Shown here: positions 137-13,022 of the stretch, piece after piece
Numbering within the stretch: position 1 is the first letter of the stretch
Layout of the letters: each line of letters begins with the position of its first letter
DNA from: Dissophora ornata
Taxonomy: Eukaryota; Mortierellomycota; Mortierellomycetes; Mortierellales; Mortierellaceae
Direction: 5' to 3'
DNA: 64,000 nt
Assembly (NCBI GenBank): GCA_025201705.1
Contig: MU616581.1
Span: forward strand, 1 to 64,000
Made by a program: the position numbers and the translations under genes
The notes under the pieces: model-generated
The model's database searches: none
The model's input: only the letters and a program-made list of their open reading frames with translations
What the model was told of the DNA's origin: nothing

Positions 137-1795
137 TCAGGCACCGTATTGAAACTTTGGTAAACGATATGGTTCAAATGAGTCTGAAGTGTTGACTTGA
201 GGGTAGAGGTAGGAGGGCTGCGTGTAGTAGCACTCCTGCAGTATCCCATCCTGAACAACTGGACCGCCTTTGCTATGATTTTGATACTCTGGTGTTTGTT
301 GGACACCATTGTGAGTGTTGGTCATGGAGCGAAGAGGAGGGGCCGGTGAGGGTGGAGCATATTTAGGAAGGTCAGATCTGGAGCGCGAAAGATTAAAAGG
401 AAAGAGGTCATCGGTGCTTGAAACCGGGTGTGATGATGACTTGGAGCTTGGATCGAAATCGATGGCGAACTCGGCATGCTTGGCCCGAACGCGAGAGCGG
501 TATATGGCCAGAACTCCTATGGTAAACGTACCGGCGGCGACTCCAAAAACAGCTCCGGCGATGGTAATGATAGGATATCCTTTGTTTGGTGGTGTGGGTG
601 TGTCTGTTGAGAGGGTGTCGTTGGGGTAATAAACAGTGGCAACTATAGAGGGAGTGGTAACTATGGAGGGAGTGGCAAATATAGAGGGAGTGGCGGAGGT
701 TGATGGGGCTGATGGGGATGGCGAGGCCAGAGTGGTGGGTGTGTTTGACGTTGACGTTGGGACCAAGGTCGTAGTAAAGGTACTTGTAGTGGCGGTTTGG
801 ACTGGCATATTGATGTAGGTTGAAGTCCAAACTGCTGACCTGATGTTATACACCATCGTTGTGTTGAACGCTGTAAGAGAGGAGTAGCCACCCCATGCGA
901 CAAAGTAGTCGTTAGGTGCAGCGCAAGCAGCACCGGCTCGCGCATTCATCGGGTCGACATCGGGCCCTCTTGTCCATTGCAGTTTTGCGACATCAAAGAT
1001 GTAGATATCGTTCAAAGTAATATTCGCTGTCGCGTTGTAGCCGCCAAACAGAACTAGTTCCGACCCCCCATAGGCAGAAACTAGGCAGGCGTCGTTGCGT
1101 GGAGTAGGGATAGTTCCTCCTGTGGTGAGAGTTATCCATCCGTTGGTTGCATTATACGCATACATGTTGCTGTCAGCTCCTCCATACATAATCATACTCT
1201 GTTGTGAAGAGCTCCAGACAATAGAATAGCTCGAGTTCGCTGAGATCTTTAAGTCATCCATCATGGAAGTACTGTCGATAATGCCGGCCGAGTCATTGGC
1301 GGCCATCTTGACTGTCAACATAACTTCCGATTGAGCTCCATTGAGGATATAAACCGTGTCCGTAGCAGGGTCTGTGACCGCAGCGAGTCCTTTATCCGAA
1401 CTTAGCATCAGGGTTGGACTAAATTGACTCCAAGTTCTTGACCCAACGTCGTAAAGGTAATCTGAAAAGGCTGTCAGGACAAGCCATCTCTGCCCATTCG
1501 ACAACAATGCGCTCGCCAGAATGGAAGTCGAATCAGAGGAGTTGAGACCAGCAGGCGCGCTTGGTAGCGCCGGTAATGTCTTGATGGCAGGATTGCTTGT
1601 GTTCCAAGAGACACTGAGGTCAATTATAAACGGATATGTACTTCCAGATTCCCCCGGCACGTAGAGTGATTGACCATCAGCAGATGCGCTGCCAGAAGCG
1701 TAAACGAGATTATGGAGGGGTGTGAAGAGAGCAAATGCATAGACTTGCAAAAGAATAAGCGTGAAGCCTTTGAGTGGATAAACAAGCAGGAACAT
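137..1795 (-). CDS. Kelch-repeat type I membrane protein (family member 1)
   Basis: Encodes about 552 residues in one exon. I chose the Met at 1795 rather than the upstream Met at 1921 because it places a hydrophobic signal peptide (MFLLVYPLKGFTLILLQVYA) at the N-terminus. The ectodomain has kelch/galactose-oxidase-type blades: several GG doublets, a motif like LVLFGGY, the phrase LNDIYIFDVAKLQWTRGPD, and FVAWGGY. A Ser/Thr/Pro-rich stalk follows. A single transmembrane helix lies at roughly residues 405-431 (IITIAGAVFGVAAG onward), then Arg/Lys and a cytosolic tail of about 120 residues. By family knowledge this is a beta-propeller displayed at the cell surface or wall. Ligand and function are unknown. 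Five paralogues lie in the same window (11620, 44556, 46504, 52335, 56344). Confidence is high for the architecture and low for any biochemical role. Confidence 0.85.
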   Translation of the reverse strand: MFLLVYPLKGFTLILLQVYAFALFTPLHNLVYASGSASADGQSLYVPGESGSTYPFIIDLSVSWNTSNPAIKTLPALPSAPAGLNSSDSTSILASALLSNGQRWLVLTAFSDYLYDVGSRTWSQFSPTLMLSSDKGLAAVTDPATDTVYILNGAQSEVMLTVKMAANDSAGIIDSTSMMDDLKISANSSYSIVWSSSQQSMIMYGGADSNMYAYNATNGWITLTTGGTIPTPRNDACLVSAYGGSELVLFGGYNATANITLNDIYIFDVAKLQWTRGPDVDPMNARAGAACAAPNDYFVAWGGYSSLTAFNTTMVYNIRSAVWTSTYINMPVQTATTSTFTTTLVPTSTSNTPTTLASPSPSAPSTSATPSIFATPSIVTTPSIVATVYYPNDTLSTDTPTPPNKGYPIITIAGAVFGVAAGTFTIGVLAIYRSRVRAKHAEFAIDFDPSSKSSSHPVSSTDDLFPFNLSRSRSDLPKYAPPSPAPPLRSMTNTHNGVQQTPEYQNHSKGGPVVQDGILQECYYTQPSYLYPQVNTSDSFEPYRLPKFQYGA

Positions 1796-2309
1796 TTTTA
1801 TGTTATGGTGTCCGAATTGAACTATGAGCGACAAGTACACAGATTGGATGGGAAGAAAATGGACTGAAAAAAAAGAAAGAAAAAAGTGCAGTGTCTGCCG
1901 GATAGCGTCGAACCCTGGCATTTATATAACCATTCCTTTCTACTCCCCCCGCATGTTTTGAGGAAACAATTGTGCTGTGTTCAGGTTTTGTCCTCAGACA
2001 GGGGGTTTGTGTAAATTGTGTGCGAATGGGACTATTGAGGAAGCCAGCCCCTCGAGGGTCAAACAAAAACACCTGAAAATGTCCCACTGTGGATATTTAT
2101 TGCATGGTAGCACAGCCGTTGTTTGAGGATACAATAGTGCACTGAGTGCACACTCAGGACAAACGAGCAACTGCTATCGGGAGTCAATGTGGTGCTTGCA
2201 GAGTTATCCCTTAGTCCGTTTTTGCGACAATTTTTTTTCCCGATAGATTAGTTGCAAATATGGAGTTTCTGTCTTTTTTGATCCCTCGAGTCTCAACCCC
2301 CATTTCTTC
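1796..2309. other. Intergenic, divergent promoters
   Basis: This lies between the kelch gene (minus) and the piggyBac-like pseudogene (plus). Apart from the TATA-like site at 1921-1928 I see no gene. No TTAA target site and no convincing terminal inverted repeat of the piggyBac element could be seen here. Confidence 0.5.
1921..1928 (-). promoter_or_regulatory. Probable TATA box of the kelch gene
   Basis: On the minus strand this reads TATATAAA, about 125 nt upstream of the chosen ATG at 1795. It supports that start over the Met at 1921, which would lie inside the promoter. Confidence 0.4.
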
Positions 2310-4245
2310 ATGGTATCGTTTTATGAATCGTCTGATGGAACCACGTCGGAGGAGGAAGAGTTCACCACTCTACTGCAGGAAGACGCACCAGAACCGGAGG
2401 ATATACCAGGCGACTTTCAAGAGGAACTAGAAGGTCCACAGACGGATATCTACCGCAGACCTCGCTGTCATCAAGAACATTTCGATGGTAATGACAAAGC
2501 CAAGCTCAATCGATTCCTCTTTTGATATTGATCAGTTATTAACATTTTCGCTCTGCTTAAAGACCTGGAAGATTTGGATGACGATGAAGACGACGACCCC
2601 GGTCCAGCACTCGCTCAGCCTGCTACATCAAATAATGGGGGGCCAAGAAAGGGACGCGCTGCGCTCGCGCCTCTGCCCCCAGTTCCACACGCCTCGCTCC
2701 CTCCTTGGAACGGTCCTTACACCCTACCAAATCTTCTCTCTTTTCTTCACTCAAGATGTTCTGGAGGATCTCGTCGCCAACACCAACTCGTACGCCGAGG
2801 TGTACGGGGCAGGACAGAGTGGGAGTAGAAAGTGGGTGGATACGAACGTTACTGAGATGCAGATACATCTAGCAATCATCATTTACATGGGCACCCATCG
2901 CAAGACGATCCCCATAGACTTCTGGACCACCCTGGAGAATTTTTCCGGCTTCAATCGGTTCATGAGCTTCGTCCGCTTTGAACAGATCAAGCGTTATTTC
3001 CATGTGTCGCCGCCTTCGGACCCGAACCGCAACGACCCATGGGTTGCCAAAGTGAAACCTCTTTCGTCGAAGTTGGACTCCGCCTTTCGACAGTATTACA
3101 TCCCCTCCAGCGAGGTTGCCGTGGATGAGATGATGGTCCGCTTCAAGGGTCGTTCCAGCCACACATTCCGCATGAAAAACAAGCCCACCTCCTCAGGCTA
3201 CAAGATCTTGGCCCTGTGCGACTCAGGATACACTTATTCGTTTCTCTACACCTCTAGAGTAAAGTCCATTCATGGCCTTCGAAAAATACCAGGACTGACC
3301 GACACCTCCAGCGCCGTCTACCAACTCGCCACGACACTTCCCCATCACGACAAGCAGTACACTGTTTTCATGGACAACTATTTCTCCAATGTCCCTCTTT
3401 TTTTGAAGTTGCGGGAAGCCAACATCGGTGCATGTGGAGCAGCCAGGATCAACGTTTCTCAGTTCCCAAAAGCGCTCAAGGTCAAAAAGGGCGATCGTTT
3501 CGACTGGAACACTATATCAGGAGTCATGGTTAAGGAGAAGGTTCTTGCCGTGTTCTAGATGGACAATGGATCTGTCTCCATGCTCTCCACCGTCGACGCC
3601 CTCAGCCTTGGCGACGACGAGTGGTCCGTTATCCGAAATCGCAGACGCCCTCGAGAGACAAGCACCAACGCAAAATCAGTGCGAGCTGTTTTCAAAGGAC
3701 AATCCAGGGCGTTACTCCCGATCCCAAAAATCATCGATGACTACAACCACCACATGAACGGAGTCGACATCGCCGACCAGTTACGCAGCTACTATTCGAC
3801 TCTGCTCCGGACTTATCGCACATGGGTTCCGATCTTCTTCTGGTTACTGGACACGACAATCATCAACGCGTACCTTATCAATAAACTCTCCGGCTCTTCT
3901 ATGCATCACAGGGAGTTCCGACAGCTCCTGGCTCAGGATCTGATAGATTCCGCCAAATATGACAGCCGGAAGTGAAACACCAACACTCGCGACACCCCGA
4001 CCCAAATATCCCCTTGTGTCTCGAAAAAATTCAAGGGACTTGACGATGAACGATTCATGACTGGCTCCCATTACCCCATCCGGGCCAAGGGCCCCCCCTA
4101 CTGCATCCTATGCAGATACAAGAAACGAGAAGGCGTAACACAAGCAGATCCTCAAGCCACCCAGCGAATTTGCTCACTCTGCAAGGTTCCTCTTTGCACC
4201 AAGAATGATCGAACCTGTTTTGAAGAGTACCATACGCGCCCATGA
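2310..4245 (+). pseudogene. piggyBac-type transposase (DDE_Tnp_1_7), broken
   Basis: The reading frame carries the piggyBac signature. It has an acidic N-terminus, an RNase-H-like core with three candidate catalytic Asp (in VAVDEMMVRFKGR, LALCDSGYTYSF and VFMDNYFSN), a conserved NGVDIADQLRSYYS stretch, and a C-terminal Cys/His domain (CILCRYKK, CSLCKVPLC, H near 4239). A plausible intron spans 2488-2562 (GTAATG...TTAAAG), joining exon 1 in frame to LEDLDDDEDDDPGP. Three lesions follow. A frame change lies at about 2705-2735, just before TPYQIFSLFF. A TAG at 3556-3558 stands where the family has Trp before MDNGSVSMLST. A TGA at 3973-3975 follows DSRK, and the frame stays open beyond it to the zinc domain. 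The element is therefore probably inactive, but few changes have accumulated, so the loss looks recent. Ends and target-site duplication were not found. Confidence 0.85.
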
Positions 4246-5454
4246 GCTTTTTTGTTCCTCTTTTTGTTTACACGTTACAAAATTTGCGACGGGTTCTGAG
4301 TCACTCAAAGTGGAGAACTGAGAGAGTTTCCTGCAGAAGCCTCTGCCATGCATGAAGTGAACACACTGTGTACGTAGTAATATTCTCAAGACAAAGTAGC
4401 CCTTTCGTCCTTTGCTCTTCCTTCCAATGCACTATCGACATATTCTTTGAGTCTTATCCTCTCTTCAGTGGGCTGCGAACTTCGTTTGGATGGCGGTGTA
4501 CTTTTACGCATGATTTTCGATTAGCTTCTTGTCCGCCGCAGTCATCACCGCTGTGCACGAGGTTCCAACTGTACCAGATACTGATTAGCTTCCTTCCCAA
4601 AGTGATATGTCCGAGCGAGCGAAGCTTAAGACTGAGCTTAAGGTATGAGAATCGCTATTATAATGGCGTGCGCATCATAGAATTTACATACACACACTGA
4701 ACCCCCCCTTGGGAGGCATGGTGCTGAAGACATTGGATGAATATTCTTTAGCGAAGAAAGTTTCGTTTGCAATGCGAGCATTTCTGTTGAGATGAGCGTG
4801 AAATGATGATCGAGAAGCGATAGTCGTCGCATCACCGACTAACGTTGCCAACGCTGCGACTCCTGCTAAAACCCAGCAACCATTCTGATATAACCTAGAA
4901 CCACTTAAACACTCACCCTGCCGATTTAAATTCACGTGTCATGGTTTTGACGCGTTTGTTGATCGAGCAGTGCTAAAATCAAACATTTTAAGTTCACCCT
5001 CCTGAAATCGGGCAAGAGCAAAGCTGCAGAGGCCACACCGAGCGATTATGACATTAGTCCCGTTCTTATCCACTCCGGAGACCTCGGCCACGACATGGCG
5101 ATGAAATCTGTGCAGCTTACATGGAAGCTTTACTGAATTCTCGGCGTTTGAGGTTTCATGTGTCCAGGCCGCATTTTTCACACGGGCATCCAGTCGTTGA
5201 GAAAAGTGCGAGCGAAATTCTTGCTGGTGACTCTCTGCTAAAAGGAAAAGGGGCGGGTAACGCGTGGTCGAGTACGTTGCCCTCGCCTAGCACAAATCAC
5301 ATGTGCTACAGTACGAATACCGCACCCCAAGGAATAGATCGCAAGACCGCGCTCCCTGATCCTCTTTGTCAATAAGCATGCTATGATCGCGCACGATCTC
5401 CAGGACGATATTCCCGGAAGGAACGAAGGTTCCCAAATTTCGTGTACTGGGCTT

Positions 5455-5479
5455 CACACCCGCTGCTTTCGCGGGTGTG
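5455..5479. repeat. Perfect 9-bp inverted repeat, 7-nt loop
   Basis: CACACCCGC at 5455-5463 is the exact reverse complement of GCGGGTGTG at 5471-5479. It is a GC-rich hairpin in an otherwise gene-poor interval between two transposon-type genes. Function is unknown. It could be an element end, an RNA hairpin or chance. Confidence 0.5.
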
Positions 5480-6068
5480 TCAATCGTGAATATTGTGGTT
5501 CAGGGCCACTGGTCGTCACTCAAGGTCTTCAAGAAGCATTATCGCCTATCGAGTGCCACCGCCTACAATATCGAAAATGCCACACTTGGACGCCTCTGGA
5601 GTCACATACGCACATGGCGCTGTAAACATTGGAGTATCGAATGGCCTACAAAGGACGACCTATTCGCATTAACATAGGTACCATAGATATTTTCCCACCC
5701 TCATCGCCCTCACCATTAGGACACATGGATTGCAACTTTTTATTTTACACAACAAATACTTCAGCGAGACAGCGGCCAAGTCCCAGTCCTTGACCGCTGT
5801 CTGGCTCAACCATTTATTGGTGTCCACTGATACGGATGGGATGTATTTAGTGCTTCGGAATATATAGTATAAAGAGGGCATTGTTGTTGTTGCTTCTGTT
5901 GTTGTTTTTTATGATGGAAAGAGAGCAGCTTGTGGCGAGGAACATGAACCCTCATTCTATACTGCAGCCCAATTTTCACCGACATTGGCGAAAGCATCGA
6001 ATCCTCTCTTCGACCACCATGCGACATAATGACACAATGATATCACGGCTTGCCTAAAAGAGGGAGGG

Positions 6069-6089
6069 CGATCAGCGCATCGCTGATCG
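6069..6089. repeat. Perfect 9-bp inverted repeat, 3-nt loop
   Basis: CGATCAGCG at 6069-6077 mirrors CGCTGATCG at 6081-6089. It lies about 260 nt upstream of the nuclease-Fanzor ATG. It could be a protein-binding palindrome or part of an element border. Nothing else supports a function. Confidence 0.45.
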
Positions 6090-6351
6090 TCATGCATGAA
6101 GGAAAGAGTCTTTTTCATTTCGTGTACTTTGAGTCGTCGCGTCGTAAGCGTCGCCTCGTGTCCCTTTCTCCTTAACTGCCTCCTTCTTCGTAAAGCATCA
6201 GAACAAATACCATCATCATCAACATCTTCAACAGAATTCTGTAAGGCCGATGCTGAGTCATGCTATCGAGAGAATCTGTGAAGTTAGAAGGGGGAGTAGA
6301 CTCGCGCTAACCATCAGCCTTCAATAGTAAATTAACTTCGACTTGTAGCAA

Positions 6352-8225
6352 ATGGGTATCACAAACCTCACTGGCTGGATCAAGGCGACAGACGGGGTGG
6401 AGGAAGATCTGACCAAGGAGAGATGCGAAGTCGACTTTTCGTCGATGTTTTTTGCGTTAGTGAATGCGCAAAGTTTCCGCGCAACGGTGCAGTTTGCTGC
6501 AAAGTCCGCCCGACGCCACATGTCTACTCACACAACAACATCGACACAACAGGCTTCATCCGGCCCAGAACGATCAGCTGATGTCGACACAGCAGGCATG
6601 TCTACTCACACAACAACATCGACACAACAGGCTTCATCCGGCCCAAAACGAGCAGCCAACGTCGATGACGCGGACACCACCGAAACTGCTCCCTCTAACA
6701 AACGCCTCCGACCTCTTCAAATCAGCTCCAGCTCGCCGACTCTCGTTGAAAACATGCAACAATTGCTGGCGACACAGCCATCCTAGATTCGGCTCGATGA
6801 GAGTGGCTCTCTGACCACTATCTGCGCCCAGGAAAAGACCATTGTAAGTACCATGAATCATGCCTGCTGGAGAAAAGCTAAATTTCTGTGGCAAAAAAAT
6901 TAACTCGCTGCTCGCTATTTCCAATAGGATTTTCGATCAGTCGGAGTCGCGGTTGAGAAGATTCTCTCCTCACGATTGTCCAAGAGCAATACAAAGCTCC
7001 ACCTAGATGGTCCACGGTCAGTGGAGAAGAAATTGGCGCACGACAAACGGGATCGGGCGCTGTCCAAGCTGTTGGAGGCACTGGAGCGAGATTACGCGGA
7101 GGGCAAGCTGCACAAAAAAAGACAGCTGTACAAACGCCTGAAGGCGTCGTACCGAGCACCACCGGAGGCATTGCGCGCCATTTTGGAAGTTCTGAGTCAG
7201 AGTGGATGGTCGATTTGCCGATGTCTCAATCAAAGCGACACGTGCATTGCTCGAACAGTCAACAACGCCACCGCACCAGGAGATATCCGAGTTATCACCA
7301 AGGACTCCGACCTCATGGCGTTCGAGTCAATCATGTCCGTCACCATGCCAGTCAAGAACACTTGGACTACTTTCCGCAAGGATAAGCTTTTGAACAAGCA
7401 TGACATTCCAACCCCTGTACATCTAACGCTTGCCGCTCTGGTATCGAGCAACGACTACACCAACGGTGTTTTTTCCTATGGCTTGACATCCAATGTCAAT
7501 ATGATTCGGCAGTTCGAGATGGCAGGTCTTGATGGAACGGTTGGCCAAGATCGAGTGGAGGCGTTTCGGGTCTATGTTAGGCATTACCTCGACATCATAC
7601 ACCAAAAGGCCTGTACGATTAAGGATGCTGCCACCCGGAGCGCACAGAGTCGACTGCGACGCAATCCTAACCCAACGGTGAAGGCACACGTCAAGGATCT
7701 GAGGAGGATCGAAGCGGCCGATCGACAGCTGAGTGCGGAAGTGACATATTTCGACAAGGCTCTCAGGGCATTCGTGCATTGCGAGGAGACTACTCTGGGC
7801 GACGACAGGATTGGCCCGGCGGCGGATGCACATACACGACTGATGGCTATTATTGACAAGACGGAGCTCAACAAAGCCTACAACGATTGGAGTCGCTTTG
7901 CCGCGAGTCGGACAGGATCATTGCCGCCTGGGCTGCAAGTAAATCCAGCTTCACAGGAGGCGGCGACACACGCCCAGGCAGCGCCACCACCGCCCCCGAC
8001 ACTACCTCCAACGGCGCCCAGGACAGGATCTCCAGTAGCAGTCCAAGCAGAACCCAGGGCAGGATCTGCACCATATCCGCAAGCTGTATCAGTAGGATCG
8101 TCTTCCATCGGCCACAAGCATGACCCAGTTGAACATCCACCATCGCACAAGGCAAAGAAAAAGAAACAACGCCGGCACGGTTCACGTGCCCGCCAGCGGC
8201 GACGACAAAAGTGGCGCCGTTCCAG
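6352..8225 (+). other. FEN1/XPG-like (PIN-fold) nuclease region of the composite gene
   Basis: The N-terminus MGITNLTGWIKAT and the segment EVDFSSMFF match the XPG N-region. LHLDGPRSVEKK matches the second acidic strand, and IRVITKDSDLMAF matches the XPG-I strand. SNDYTNGVFSYG matches the helix-hairpin entry of flap endonucleases. Counting from 6352 with the TAG read through, acidic positions are D28, D191, D268, D290, D292 and D340. The site usually held by the first Glu of the EAEA motif is Gln266 (codon 7231-7233). A 26-residue duplicated linker (6520-6675) splits the N-region. The region ends in a Pro/Ala linker and a very basic stretch with KAKKKKQRR, a likely nuclear signal. By family knowledge such enzymes cut 5' flaps or branched DNA. 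Activity here is uncertain because of the Gln and the TAG. Confidence 0.75.
6520..6675 (+). repeat. 78-bp tandem duplication, two copies
   Basis: Copies at 6520-6597 and 6598-6675 both encode a 26-residue block beginning MSTHTTTSTQQASSGP. They differ at a few codons in the second half (ERSADVDTAG versus KRAANVDDAD). The duplication is in frame and lengthens a Ser/Thr/Gln linker inside the nuclease N-region. Confidence 0.9.
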
Positions 8226-8310
8226 GTATGTCTTTCGTCGTTGTATTTCTCTGCCTTGCCCTATTTATATATATTTTCACCTAAACATACATCTCCAAAA
8301 TCACATCTAG

Positions 8311-10925
8311 ATTCCGCTCCCGCACAGACATGCAAGATCGCTATGTGCCGGACACTGTTTTCCTAGAGAAGGCCAGCCCTGTTGATGACGTGGAACTTTC
8401 AGGATTGAAGCCGTCGACCCCCCGTCCTCCAAAGCCAAAGGTGCCATCCACCCGCATCGACCAAGCACGTGCCCCCGCTCCCGAGATGAAAAAGAAAAAA
8501 CTCCTTGGTGACCCTACGAGAATAGCTGGACCCAAGGCCCTGAAGAGATCGTTCCAATCTGTTTTCGCCACGGTCACGCTCACGACTGGATCCCTACAAG
8601 GCTGTCTATGGAGATCAACCAATCTGTCCAAAGCAGAGATTGCGCAGGTTACCCAACGCTTGGGTTTGGCCGTCTCTACCGTCAATAGCGCCAAACACGT
8701 TGTGTATAAGCTAGCAGAGATGCGAATTCTGCAGCCGCTGCTCAAGACTGGACCCGACCAGGTAGAGGATGGACTGGGCAAGAGCTTCTTGGAGAAGATC
8801 CTGGATTCCGAATGGGCGGAGAGGTTTCTCCAGAACTTACTGTCCTTCGTCTTGAGGAATTCCACTGTAACCCAAGGACGTCCACCCGCGTCGGACAAGA
8901 GCAAGGATGCTGTCGCTGAGGCAATCTCGACGTTCAACGAGTTCAAGAAAACACTGTGCCCAGGGTTCAAAGCCCTCAACCCATCAGATCTGGCTTTGAG
9001 TAACATTATCGCTGAACTTGCACCCAGGATTTGTCTGAATTTGAAACTGCATTTCAGAAGAATGCCAGAGACCCTTAGAACAAAAGTACGATTCATCAAT
9101 GAGGTGGAAAACATATTTTAACACTATTTTTGTTTATACGACGCTAGCTCTCCAGGTTATCTATTGATTGCGATGGTCTTCCTGAAATGGATCAAGATGA
9201 TGCCGACGCTGGCGGTGATGCCAGTGCTGCTGATGTTAACGTGGATGTGGACGACGACACCCTCCAACGATCCAAAAAGATTGTTTTCAAGCCAGGTCAT
9301 ATTCAACTCTGCTGGCAATACTTCCTTCGTTTACCATCATCCAAGCGGCCCCGGTTCTGCGCTCACGCCAAAATGAGCGATGCTTTCATCGACATCAACG
9401 AGGAGGCGTTGGTAGCGCTTCTCTGGGGACAGAATGCAGGCCAGCTGGACAACGTATGGGAGGACACTCACTACACTCACAACTGGGCAGTCACCAAACA
9501 GCGTTCTTCGTACGGGGAGGTGATCAAGGAACTATTCATCGGGGATCGGGATGCCATCAAGAAAGCCAGTAACAAGCAGCAGACGACATACGGGAAGAAG
9601 ACAACAACTATGGCTGAGCGTCATGAAGCCCATCCACACATCTATGGACAGTTGGAGCTCGCGCAGTATTGGACAAGGAGGGTCAATTATTTCCGAGAAC
9701 GGCACAACGCGGCCCAGACACCACCATTGTCATCCTCAACATCATCGTCATCGACGGCCTCCGCCCCACCGCCCCACCGCCTCTGCCCACCCCACCTCCG
9801 CTGCAGCGTTCTTACCGCTACGCCCTCAACAACTATATCAGGACGGATGGCCAACAATTGCAGATCCTCGCGTATGACCTTACAAGACCCCGCCAACCAC
9901 CCAATCGCAAGGACTTTCTTTCAAGAGTCGAGAAATTGTACCCCACGCAGCGGCACCTTATCGAGGCGTTCGGTGATGATCTTGATTCTGTCATTGTCGT
10001 CGGCATTGACCCTGGAGAAGTAGTGAGTGGGGCATTTTGTTTGACGCTTCCCGGTGGAAAGGTCATTAACTTGCTGGTGAAGAGAGCGTCTCTATACCAA
10101 CCTACTCTGGCGTTCCGAGACTGGGAGCAGCATTGGAAGCGGCAGCATCCAACAGCTGGTCCAGGCGATGTTGTCGACTCGTCCCTTTGGACACGGATTC
10201 CCGACTTGGACAAGCCCACCACTCTCCCGTCTGCCCATGACCTAGAGAATTCTCTCCCCTCAACAGACTACGACTCATAGGGAGCTTTGACGGCAGCCCA
10301 CAAGAGGTACTACGAGCTAGAACCGCTGGTCCACGGAATTTACGCATCTGGAGACTGGAAGGAGGCGGTTCACCAGCAGAGAATGGCAAAAATGTCGGAG
10401 ATGGATTTGGCCGCGGCTGGCGTTTTGCGGATGGTGGATGAGGCCTGTCAGGGCGCACCTGTCGATCAGAGAAAAGTCCTTTTTGCTCTGGGGAACGGAA
10501 CCTTCCGTTCTGGCTTGAACCTGTCTTCGATGCACACCACATTTCTCAGACGACTCTTGCAGAAGGTATGAAAGGCGAAAAGAAATCGTGAAAGGCATGG
10601 TTGTACTTCATTGTTTTGATTGTGTGTAACCATTATGTTATTTCTGCACCGATAGAGTGCTGCGCTTGGATACAAGGCTGCCCTGGTAGATGAATACCTT
10701 ACATCAACAATGTGTCCAACATGCGTTGTCGAGAACCGGGCCAACCGCCTCGCCAAGCCGTCAATGAGAACGTGCGCTTGCGTTGAGTGCGCCCGGTGGA
10801 TTCACCGAGATGGAGTGGGGGCGCACAACATCGCTTTGATCGGACAGCACTACCTCAAGACACTTGGACGTCCCCCGTCCCTCTCGAGACCGTCCTCCCT
10901 CCCCAACAGACAACAACCTCTATAG
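8311..10925 (+). other. Fanzor (TnpB-like RuvC/zinc-ribbon) region of the composite gene
   Basis: The C-terminal half shows the order of motifs expected of Fanzor/OrfB proteins. VVGIDPGEVVSG is RuvC-I (Asp codon 10008-10010). VLFALGNGTF is followed, after the 10566-10655 intron, by ALVDEYLTSTMCPTC, and then CACVECARWIHRDGVGAHNIA (RuvC-III Asp codon 10809-10811). CPTC and CVEC are the zinc-ribbon knuckles. The Glu in VDEY (10692-10694) sits where a relocated catalytic Glu has been described for Fanzor. The upstream part (8311-9800) is a lineage-specific N-terminal region with an acidic segment near 9190-9260. The known role of Fanzor proteins is RNA-guided DNA cleavage using an omega-type RNA. 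Whether this copy works is doubtful given TAG 10278-10280 and the frame change. Confidence 0.8.
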
Positions 10926-10946
10926 ATTGAACCTATAGTTTACTAC

Positions 10947-10973
10947 TATCCCCCTTTTACGGATTAAGGGATA
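10947..10973 (+). other. Hairpin just after the Fanzor stop, candidate part of a guide RNA or 3' end
   Basis: TATCCCCCTT (10947-10956) pairs with AAGGGATA (10966-10973), leaving two unpaired C, 22 nt after the stop at 10925. In TnpB and Fanzor systems the guide RNA scaffold commonly overlaps or follows the 3' end of the gene. That makes this the place to look, but the hairpin alone does not prove it. A 3' processing structure is equally possible. Confidence 0.25.
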
Positions 10974-11619: not shown

Positions 11620-13022
11620 ATGCAGTTGCGATCCCCATTTGCGCCAGCAATAGCCTTGCTGCTGAGTCTTGTCTGGAATACTCAACATGTGGTTTGTCAA
11701 AACATGCCCTCCAAATCGACGCCACCCTGCACAGTGCCAAGGGCAGTTTGGGCGCCCTCCCATGCAGCCTTAAACAGCAAGCTCTATATCCAAGGTGGAC
11801 AGGCCCAGGATCTGAGCTATGTTGGACAGTTCTTCGCCCTCGATCTTTCTACTGCATGGGATGTCCAATGCCCCGTATGGGAGGAACTGCCAAGCGGCCC
11901 CATCAACTTCTATCATAGTAGCACCTCAGTGCCGCCCAGACCAACCGTGCCATCGGATACCACTGAAAATATGGCCATGGGTACGATATTGACGTTCAAA
12001 GCGCCAGTCGACTCGTCTAGTCTTATCAACCGATACGATATTGCGACGAGAACCTGGGCTAATTCGAGCGTCCAGGTGTTGGTGCCTCGACGGTATGGCA
12101 TTGATGCGGTGACGAATCCAAGTTCAGGATTGGTCTACCTGCTGGGCGGTTACAACACATGGCTCCTTGATAAGATGGCTATTTATGACCCGTACTCGGA
12201 CTCGCTTGCGTCAGAGCCCCTATCAGAAGAACAGGGCAGCGAAAAGGCCCAGGTCTGGGGACTTGATTACTATTCTGCAGCGTGGGTATCTAGCTTGCAG
12301 CGGGTGATTTATATTGGAGGGACAAGTGACACATATCCGAACAAGACAAAGGCGAGCATTGAACTGTACTCACCAGCGGAGGATAAATGGATATCCGTCG
12401 TAAGTTCTGTCTTGGCATGAAGACACTGGCTCTCCTTGAAAAAATTGATCACTGAAATCACTGTCACGCGATTCGATTTGTTTCGATTCGATGCGTAGGA
12501 AACAAAAGGGGATGTGCCACAGGACACTGATGGAGCTTGCCTGGCAATTGGTTGGTATTTGTGTCTGCTTTCTGTGTAATACGATATATCCACACACTCA
12601 CACGCGGCCATGCACGCGTTTTTCTCGTAGACGAGATTGGAGGCCAGGCAATCCTTTTCGGGGGCTCGGGACAACTTCACGACTCCAACCAAATCTTCTT
12701 CCTCAATCTGGATCCTGCATCAGATGCGATTTACACTTGGAAACAGGGTCAGCTGGCGAACCAATCGCGACGAAGTATGGCGTGTGCAGCTTACGGAAGG
12801 TTCTTCGTGGCCTGGGGCGGTAACATACCTCGTCTATCTTTCATGGCATGTATTTCTACCATGTAATGTTATGCTTCTAAATATCTATGATGTTTTGTGT
12901 ATCCCTCTCTAGGTAAGGTGAACAACGCCGTGGGCAACTATCAGACCCCGGTCGTTTACGACTTGAGCAAAAGTCAGTGGGTGGGCCGATACGATCCGAT
13001 TTCTGGAACATCAAGCTCCTAG
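11620..13022 (+). CDS. Secreted kelch/galactose-oxidase-like protein (family member 2)
   Basis: Four exons agree in phase: 11620-12399, 12499-12550, 12631-12819 and 12913-13022, giving 376 residues. The start at 11620 opens a clear signal peptide (MQLRSPFAPAIALLLSLVWN). Kelch-like blades follow, with LVYLLGGYNTWLLDKM, KGDVPQDTDGACLAIG (split by an intron), GGQAILFGG and FFVAWGG. Unlike its five paralogues in the window it ends soon after the last blade (GTSSS) with no transmembrane helix, so it is predicted to be released or wall-trapped. It is also the only one of the six that needs introns. Function is unknown beyond a beta-propeller fold. Exon 2 is only 52 nt, the least certain part of the model. 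Confidence 0.75.

Follow-up and report, generated by a model that had tools for sequence, protein, structure and literature searches.

The RuvC nuclease of TnpB and Fanzor proteins cleaves both DNA strands on its own, and enzymes of the XPG/FEN1 type cut 5' flaps, bubbles and DNA ends. Several described systems provide a framework for comparison. RNA-guided activity has been published for the Fanzor family, according to the available text of PMC10432273, and the Fanzor pattern has been described, in the part of PMC10711439 that could be consulted, as a RuvC aspartate (in DPG), a glutamate six residues before a CxxC motif, a set of four cysteines (C4), and a further aspartate after the zinc ribbon. 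According to the available text of PMC11423790, PpFz1 of Parasitella carries an FRI domain that binds cyclophilin and has been found only in Parasitella and Rhizopus, and the accessible portion of PMC3627910 describes viral Mariner elements with genes for GIY-YIG or EcoRII-like nucleases beside the transposase, one of which (PGv-1) also has a Fanzor. Here, a stretch of 64,000 nucleotides from Dissophora ornata (hereafter the window), which lies at the very start of contig MU616581.1 (C20 in our numbering) in a draft genome of 31.4 Mb and 968 contigs (GCA_025201705.1), was analyzed, and positions 6352-10925 were found to place an XPG/FEN1-type nuclease in frame with a Fanzor. At the level of gene models, comparison of sequences makes it nearly certain that the two are fused in one polypeptide in this family, and the interpretation that we favor, with some reserve, is a transposon-encoded dual-nuclease Fanzor, which would join RNA-guided cutting and flap or end processing in one chain.

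The gene consists of five exons and four introns on the plus strand. Exon 1 (6352-6843) encodes the N-terminus of the XPG-like domain (MGITNLTGWI at 6352, D28 at 6433-6435) and a low-complexity insert with an in-frame TAG at 6784-6786, a stretch through which the related public protein P0009 runs on, and is followed by intron 1 (6844-6927, GTAAGT...AATAG, phase 0). Exon 2 (6928-8225) encodes the XPG core (D191 at 7006-7008, Q266 at 7231-7233, D268 at 7237-7239, D290, D292, D340, and a helix-two-turn-helix-like stretch) and a basic linker, and the junction intron behind it (8226-8310, GTATGT...CATCTAG) is in phase 2 and restores the frame. Exon 3 (8311-9085) encodes a conserved middle region to which no fold was assigned; it is conserved in the public protein P0008 and, in part, in fused relatives. 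Intron 3 (9086-9147, phase 0) was deduced from the continuity of P0008 and from the frame. Exon 4 (9148-10565) holds the rest of the middle region, RuvC (GIDPG, with its aspartate at 10008-10010), a frame change at about 9740-9800, and a TAG at 10278-10280, over which the relatives on C454 and C33 align. Intron 4 (10566-10655) is in phase 0, as is the final intron of the copies on C298 and C141, and exon 5 (10656-10925) provides the repositioned RuvC glutamate (10692-10694), a C4 zinc ribbon, the last RuvC aspartate (10809-10811) and the stop codon. With two in-frame stops and one frame change, the window copy is dead. All of the residues and motifs named in a first-pass annotation of this DNA (MGITNLTGWI, the six aspartates, GIDPG, VDEYLTS, CPTC and HRDG) and its signals and frame for the junction intron are present where it placed them. 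The in-frame fusion that it proposed is borne out by intact models and relatives, but the broken state of this copy had gone unmentioned, and 6352-10925 is the extent of the fused gene, whereas the mobile unit, which includes a piggyBac-type transposase, is larger (2205-10973). A 69-bp direct repeat was also observed within the low-complexity stretch of exon 1 (6519-6665, 93% identical, starts 78 bp apart), of which the C33 copy has one unit.

The fusion is not confined to the window copy and extends further than the first-pass annotation had supposed, and the intact copies in the same order that it had thought worth searching for occur both in this genome and in several genera of Mortierellaceae. 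Spliced fused models without stops were obtained at C298 (locus L057, 1178 amino acids) and C141 (L062, 1300 amino acids), each with four introns in phases 1, 2, 0 and 0; models of L056, L058 and L061 ended early and were excluded from the intact count. The public fused proteins are gene predictions. Six of the nine relatives of the window protein have a stated organism and belong to Mortierella and Linnemannia, and a search with P0010, limited in its scoring to the 7992 candidates that had most words in common with the query, yielded 27 proteins including P0010 itself, from Dissophora, Benniella, Entomortierella, Haplosporangium, Linnemannia and Mortierella. One of the public proteins, P0018 of Benniella (1276 amino acids), exceeds the Pfam cut-offs for XPG_I, XPG_I_2 and TNB in a single chain. 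When these 27 proteins and P0012-P0014 were aligned (30 relatives), TNB was detected in 18 and XPG_I in 11 at an E value of 0.01, and all seven XPG acids together with the full RuvC D-E-D set and the four cysteines were kept in seven. Four others (P0015, P0016, P0023 and P0024) have the full RuvC set but, as aligned, are missing one or two XPG positions near the N-terminus, and the rest are partial, without one half, or substituted.

The XPG core was aligned across 15 rows (the window, 11 other loci of the genome and three public proteins), and the resulting profile matched the structures of Rad2 (7e-11), FEN1 (1e-10) and XPG (2e-7) over nearly its full length. Coverage was less complete for EXO1 (6e-7), which matched most of the profile, and for GEN1 (9e-4), which matched the second half. 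The XPG-family match anticipated for this half was obtained with the alignment but not in Pfam with the window sequence; the XPG_I cut-off was exceeded by the fused loci on C661, C298 and C21. The metal-binding acidic positions are present as judged against the Rad2 alignment, from which the mapping was taken; we assume the FEN1 residue numbering, and the first acid was placed by its nearness to the N-terminus. All seven catalytic acids are found at C298, C141, C123, C21, C160, C661, C228 and C20:68724. Six of the seven are found in the window and C454, in both of which the E-x-D pair begins with Q (as it does in P0001-P0007 by reading), and in C237, with N at the first acid. The six aspartates that the first-pass annotation named in the flap-endonuclease-type region are six of these seven, the seventh position, Q266, being absent from its list. 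No variation was seen at the other core acids among the 15 rows, in which identity to the first row falls to 28%.

Ratios of nonsynonymous to synonymous substitution rates (dN/dS) were estimated by the Nei-Gojobori count. Between the window and C454, the ratio was 0.24 in the XPG half (dS of about 2) and 0.18 in the middle region (dS of about 3), in a comparison where dS is saturated and RuvC is not estimable. C298 versus C824 gave 0.29 for the XPG tail plus middle region and 0.19 for RuvC, the window versus C33 gave 0.41 and 0.36 for the two ends, and C228 versus C190, a recent pair, gave 0.65 in the XPG half. By these values, both halves have been constrained, less clearly so among recent copies. 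These data bear on the possibility that the XPG-like half is catalytically idle and acts as a DNA- or RNA-binding module, for an R-loop, a guide RNA or a branch, so that the Fanzor half would be the sole cutter. This would agree with the Q that replaces the first acid of E-x-D in the window, C454 and P0001-P0007, with N for one aspartate in two of the 30 relatives, and with N at the first acid of C237, and it is best supported in the window subfamily, by that Q. However, the E is kept in the other tabulated loci, the rest of the core acids do not vary across the alignment, the full acid set persists in seven of the 30 relatives, and dN/dS of the older pairs is far under 1, so that a purely binding role seems rather unlikely for the family. 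It is probable, on the basis of retained residues, that both nuclease sites are active in intact copies.

The Fanzor half was assigned as anticipated by profile searches: exon 5 of the window matches PF07282 (TNB, Cas12f1-like) with 32.2 bits and an E value of 1.2e-7, above the curated cut-off of 26.3, and a profile of the fused alignment matches the mimivirus TnpB-like protein L79. The arrangement of glutamate, zinc ribbon and aspartate (4-8 residues after) was present in seven of the eight sequences checked (the window, L057, L062, P0010, L056, L058 and L054) and was not found in the remaining one, P0008. At RuvC-I the window has GIDPG, whereas L057, L062 and P0010 have GLDLG, so the window agrees with the published DPG and these three do not. 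The RuvC glutamate appeared as Q in C123 and as F in C237 through overlapping high-scoring segment pairs, and plain translation reads NEYYTS and NEYNTS, respectively. Because activity of this kind has been published for the Fanzor family (available text of PMC10432273), the Fanzor half would be expected to be RNA-guided.

It is also conceivable that the XPG-like half does not act on repair ends at all, and serves instead in guide-RNA maturation or in cleavage of the displaced R-loop strand. The R-loop of an RNA-guided enzyme would present a bubble- or flap-like substrate in cis, of the kind on which FEN1 and XPG act, but in TnpB and Fanzor the RuvC domain suffices for both strands, so that the need for a second cutter there is not evident; we consider this alternative improbable, to about the same degree as an idle XPG half.

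Whether the dual-nuclease protein is one product or two depends on the junction. The junction intron is in phase 2 at seven of the eight loci compared (the window, C298, C141, C123, C21, C661 and C237), and P0008, from Mortierella hygrophila, is annotated as spliced across the same junction. At C298, C141, C661 and C237, no in-frame methionine occurs until after the exon-3 motif with which the second half begins, and an independent second gene would therefore be startless at these four loci. Two adjacent genes of one element, expressed separately and joined only by gene prediction, would be in keeping with several features: the window exon 2 frame stays open for 28 codons beyond the donor site, which would allow an unspliced XPG product; the public proteins P0001, P0002 and P0004 terminate at or just beyond the junction; an in-frame methionine stands ahead of the exon-3 motif at three loci (the window, C123 and C21); and the fusion is known here from gene models. 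Against this, no second start is conserved: at four loci the first methionine follows the motif, and in the other four the sites are scattered, those of the window, C123, C21 and C160 all being different, with that of C160 inside the motif. Together with the shared phase-2 junction and the fused annotations in several genera, this makes two separate genes very unlikely.

The arrangement was further examined across the genome, where clustered matches gave approximately 47 XPG loci and 102 Fanzor loci. The pairing counts are approximate because they were made from a subset of match rows (58 of 58, 6 of 29 for the exon 2 query, 135 of 150 with short pieces dropped, 20 of 85, and 8 of 12), because C454 was counted as three XPG entries owing to a partial inversion of its XPG region, and because the random control placed loci on one unbroken line of 31.4 Mb without contig ends; the search with exon 2 had returned 29 matches in the genome. 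With these limits, 16 of the 47 XPG loci are followed within 6 kb by a Fanzor on the same strand, whereas 1000 random placements averaged 0.4 such pairs and never gave more than 4, and 14 of these 16 paired loci are spaced by 1.4-2.2 kb. Other arrangements within 6 kb are rarer (two XPG loci with an upstream Fanzor on the same strand and four with one on the opposite strand). Chance adjacency or a chimeric assembly confined to the window, to which a broken copy within a repeat-rich stretch might point, can be dismissed for practical purposes in view of the paired loci as compared with random placement, the intact models on C298 and C141, and the fused proteins from other assemblies.

Unpaired loci were read in part. 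Fanzors free of XPG were considered as a possible ancestral form; four of the 86 unpaired Fanzor loci, inspected upstream (C450, C219, C824 and C292), read as 5'-truncated fused copies, with the match to the fused protein beginning at residues 514, 779, 259 and 681, respectively. The short loci C410, C570, C516, C918 and one at the far end of C20 were inspected as well: no XPG half could be made out at C410 and C570, C516 shows by eye an XPG-like N-terminal stretch ahead of its Fanzor part, and the C918 and far-end C20 loci sit at contig ends. XPG-only genes were likewise considered, and at the diverged, unpaired loci C134 and C28 middle and Fanzor-like stretches could be seen by eye downstream. 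At C425 similarity ends after residue 294, and several other unpaired XPG loci lie at contig ends, among the subset of the 31 that was followed downstream. Intact homologues with the two halves as separate genes, which the first-pass annotation had named as an outcome that would overturn the fusion, were not found among the part of the unpaired loci that was read, of which C425, C570 and C410 lack one half or are unresolved.

The two halves also appear to share a history. Among 12 sequences, the distances in one half correlated with those in the other (Mantel r of 0.80, reached in 1 of 10,000 permutations), and the trees of the two halves have three strongly supported splits in common. These observations fit one old fusion that was inherited as a unit and broken later, possibly with occasional recombination.

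Several rearranged copies were noted in addition. The copy on C33 (L044) is a fused copy with an internal deletion, without the counterpart of window 6825-10078; in L021 (C7), an apparent internal deletion derivative, the XPG part is joined almost straight to RuvC; and L051 (C516) is apparently another such derivative, which by eye retains an XPG-like N-terminal stretch and a Fanzor part. In L055 (C454:20800-26978), the central XPG segment is inverted in an otherwise collinear copy, which is preceded at about 3 kb by a further XPG copy and followed by a portion of another Fanzor. Just behind the fused copy on C21, beside ambiguous bases, lies a second Fanzor RuvC piece (L058:4771-5100), which may be a tandem copy or an assembly problem. 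The 5'-truncated fused gene on C824 (L067:2-1690) adjoins an open frame that, from a motif recognized by eye, may encode a Crypton-type tyrosine recombinase.

The copy in the window is carried by a piggyBac-type element. Its left terminal inverted repeat (2205-2218, plus strand) is the 14-bp sequence TATCCCTTAGTCCG, and the right one (10960-10973) reads TATCCCTTAATCCG on the minus strand. Exact TATCCCTTARTCCG occurs at three sites in the 31.4 Mb, namely at 2205, inversely at 10960-10973, and at the right end of the C33 copy, and the reversed pattern used as a control occurs at none; with up to one mismatch, two sites are found in the window, where 0.05 would be expected and 1 of 100 shuffles reached as many. 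Because inverted 14-mers stand at both ends and the copies on C33 and C939 both cease to match at 10973, a common right end, the element was delimited as 2205-10973. It contains a broken transposase gene (2431-4242, plus strand) with stops at 3556-3558 and 3973-3975 and a C-terminal zinc finger; the transposase matches PF13843 (DDE_Tnp_1_7) over positions 1-349 of 349 with 212 bits and an E value of 9.5e-62, and its pieces match PF13843 and PF13842. Between the transposase and the fused gene lies a nested insertion of another repeat (4288-6124). The C33 copy matches window 3279-4287, 6125-6824 and 10079-10973, and the insertion is considered later because window positions 4287 and 6125 are only 11 bases apart there; most of it matches L064 on C113, and related repeats are present on C113 and C144. 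Matches to PF13843 occur at only four places in the genome (the window, C33, C570 and C22), so the other fused loci do not lie beside a piggyBac transposase by this measure. Within the window subfamily, the sequence assigns the fused gene as cargo of a piggyBac-type element. Such elements generate a TTAA target-site duplication; here the ends read TATCCC...GGGATA, with no directly adjoining TTAA and flanks that would fit TA at most, in an old copy to which two other right ends are comparable. Possible genes for kelch-like secreted proteins, recognized by eye, flank the element at about 300-1860 (minus strand) and 11620-12420 (plus strand).

A number of points weigh against a dual-nuclease Fanzor and should be set beside this evidence. 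The window copy is broken, and the splice sites of the gene models made here were picked by eye to preserve frame. Its XPG half, searched against Pfam, gives no significant XPG match, while relatives do match; in its subfamily a metal-site glutamate is replaced by Q, and the first acid of C237 is N. At the junction, the second half has an in-frame methionine before its conserved motif at the window, C123 and C21, and the hand-chosen acceptor of C160 yields a different frame. By coordinates, 31 of the 47 XPG loci and 86 of the 102 Fanzor loci are unpaired, and only three of nine splits are common to the trees of the two halves, with C237, C160 and C661 placed differently. The ratio for C228/C190 and the saturated comparison with C454 belong here too, as does a guide-RNA search at the 3' end, where folding gave a z score of -0.66 with no standout structure, a value that in itself points neither way, and no Rfam match was found.

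On balance, the dual-nuclease Fanzor still appears the best account, and sequence supports its gene architecture, the conservation of the fusion, the retention of catalytic residues, purifying selection and, in the window subfamily, piggyBac-type carriage; from these we infer splicing in vivo, a guide RNA, RNA-guided cutting, XPG activity and a role in repair. The predicted polypeptide of about 1180-1420 residues would begin with an XPG/FEN1-type nuclease, continue with a conserved middle region that presumably provides the lobes binding guide RNA and DNA, and end with the RuvC/zinc-ribbon nuclease of the Fanzor. Together with a guide RNA from the element end, the Fanzor half would cut DNA matching the flank of the element, whether in an empty allele or at a donor site; 5' flaps, the displaced strand or ends arising from the cut or R-loop would then be worked on by the XPG half, and the processed break would be committed to homology-directed copying, by which the element is retained or copied. 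Among possible joint functions, processing of the guided break or R-loop in cis would be the simplest. Processing of element ends or repair intermediates, as the first-pass annotation had suggested, is plausible, and end or flap processing as the role of the XPG half is a tentative assignment that we hold at somewhat below even chances. A more specific version, in which a guided break or R-loop is followed at once by flap trimming, end resection or cleavage of the displaced strand by an XPG/EXO1-like half and the transposon thereby homes into empty alleles, is more speculative still.

How eukaryotic transposons benefit from Fanzors, and whether Fanzors direct the repair of their own breaks, is an open question for which a conserved in-chain fusion would offer a natural experiment. 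If the homing version is correct, a natural two-nuclease RNA-guided homing system has been maintained across several genera of Mortierellaceae. From the fusion, genome engineering would also gain a natural example of an RNA-guided cutter and end-processing nuclease in one chain. No publication on a fusion of Fanzor with XPG or a flap nuclease, and none pairing Fanzor with Mortierella, was found in a literature search that did not cover the 2023 Science Advances Fanzor survey, supplements and most subscription papers, so that absence from print is not established.

The locus nevertheless resembles several known systems and departs from each of them. Like piggyBac elements it has short inverted repeats at its termini and a full-length PF13843 transposase that ends in a zinc finger, while the TTAA duplication is not seen at the ends of this old copy and the fused gene is carried as cargo. 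With XPG, Rad2, FEN1 and EXO1 nucleases it shares the MG start, seven metal-binding acidic residues, the XPG-I region and an NDY/helix-two-turn-helix stretch; here, however, the nuclease is part of a family of transposon genes and is joined to a Fanzor, and it has E-x-D where the Rad2 alignment has E-x-E, or Q-x-D in one subfamily. The likeness to Fanzors such as SpuFz1 of Spizellomyces, GtFz1 of Guillardia and mimivirus L79 lies in the split RuvC D-E-D, the C4 zinc ribbon and the TNB domain, and, for Fanzor1 and Fanzor2 in general, in carriage by DNA transposons and the many copies in fungi. Unlike them, this protein includes in the same polypeptide a long middle region and a nuclease of the XPG/FEN1 type, and the fused L057, L062 and P0010 have D-L-G in place of the near-universal D-P-G that the window retains. 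Parasitella PpFz1 is similarly a fungal Fanzor1 with an extra domain, but the FRI domain is not described as a nuclease in the available text (PMC11423790). The viral Mariner elements likewise bring a second nuclease into the same kind of element, as far as the accessible portion of PMC3627910 describes them, yet theirs is separate and of another type, whereas here an XPG domain would be fused to the Fanzor itself.

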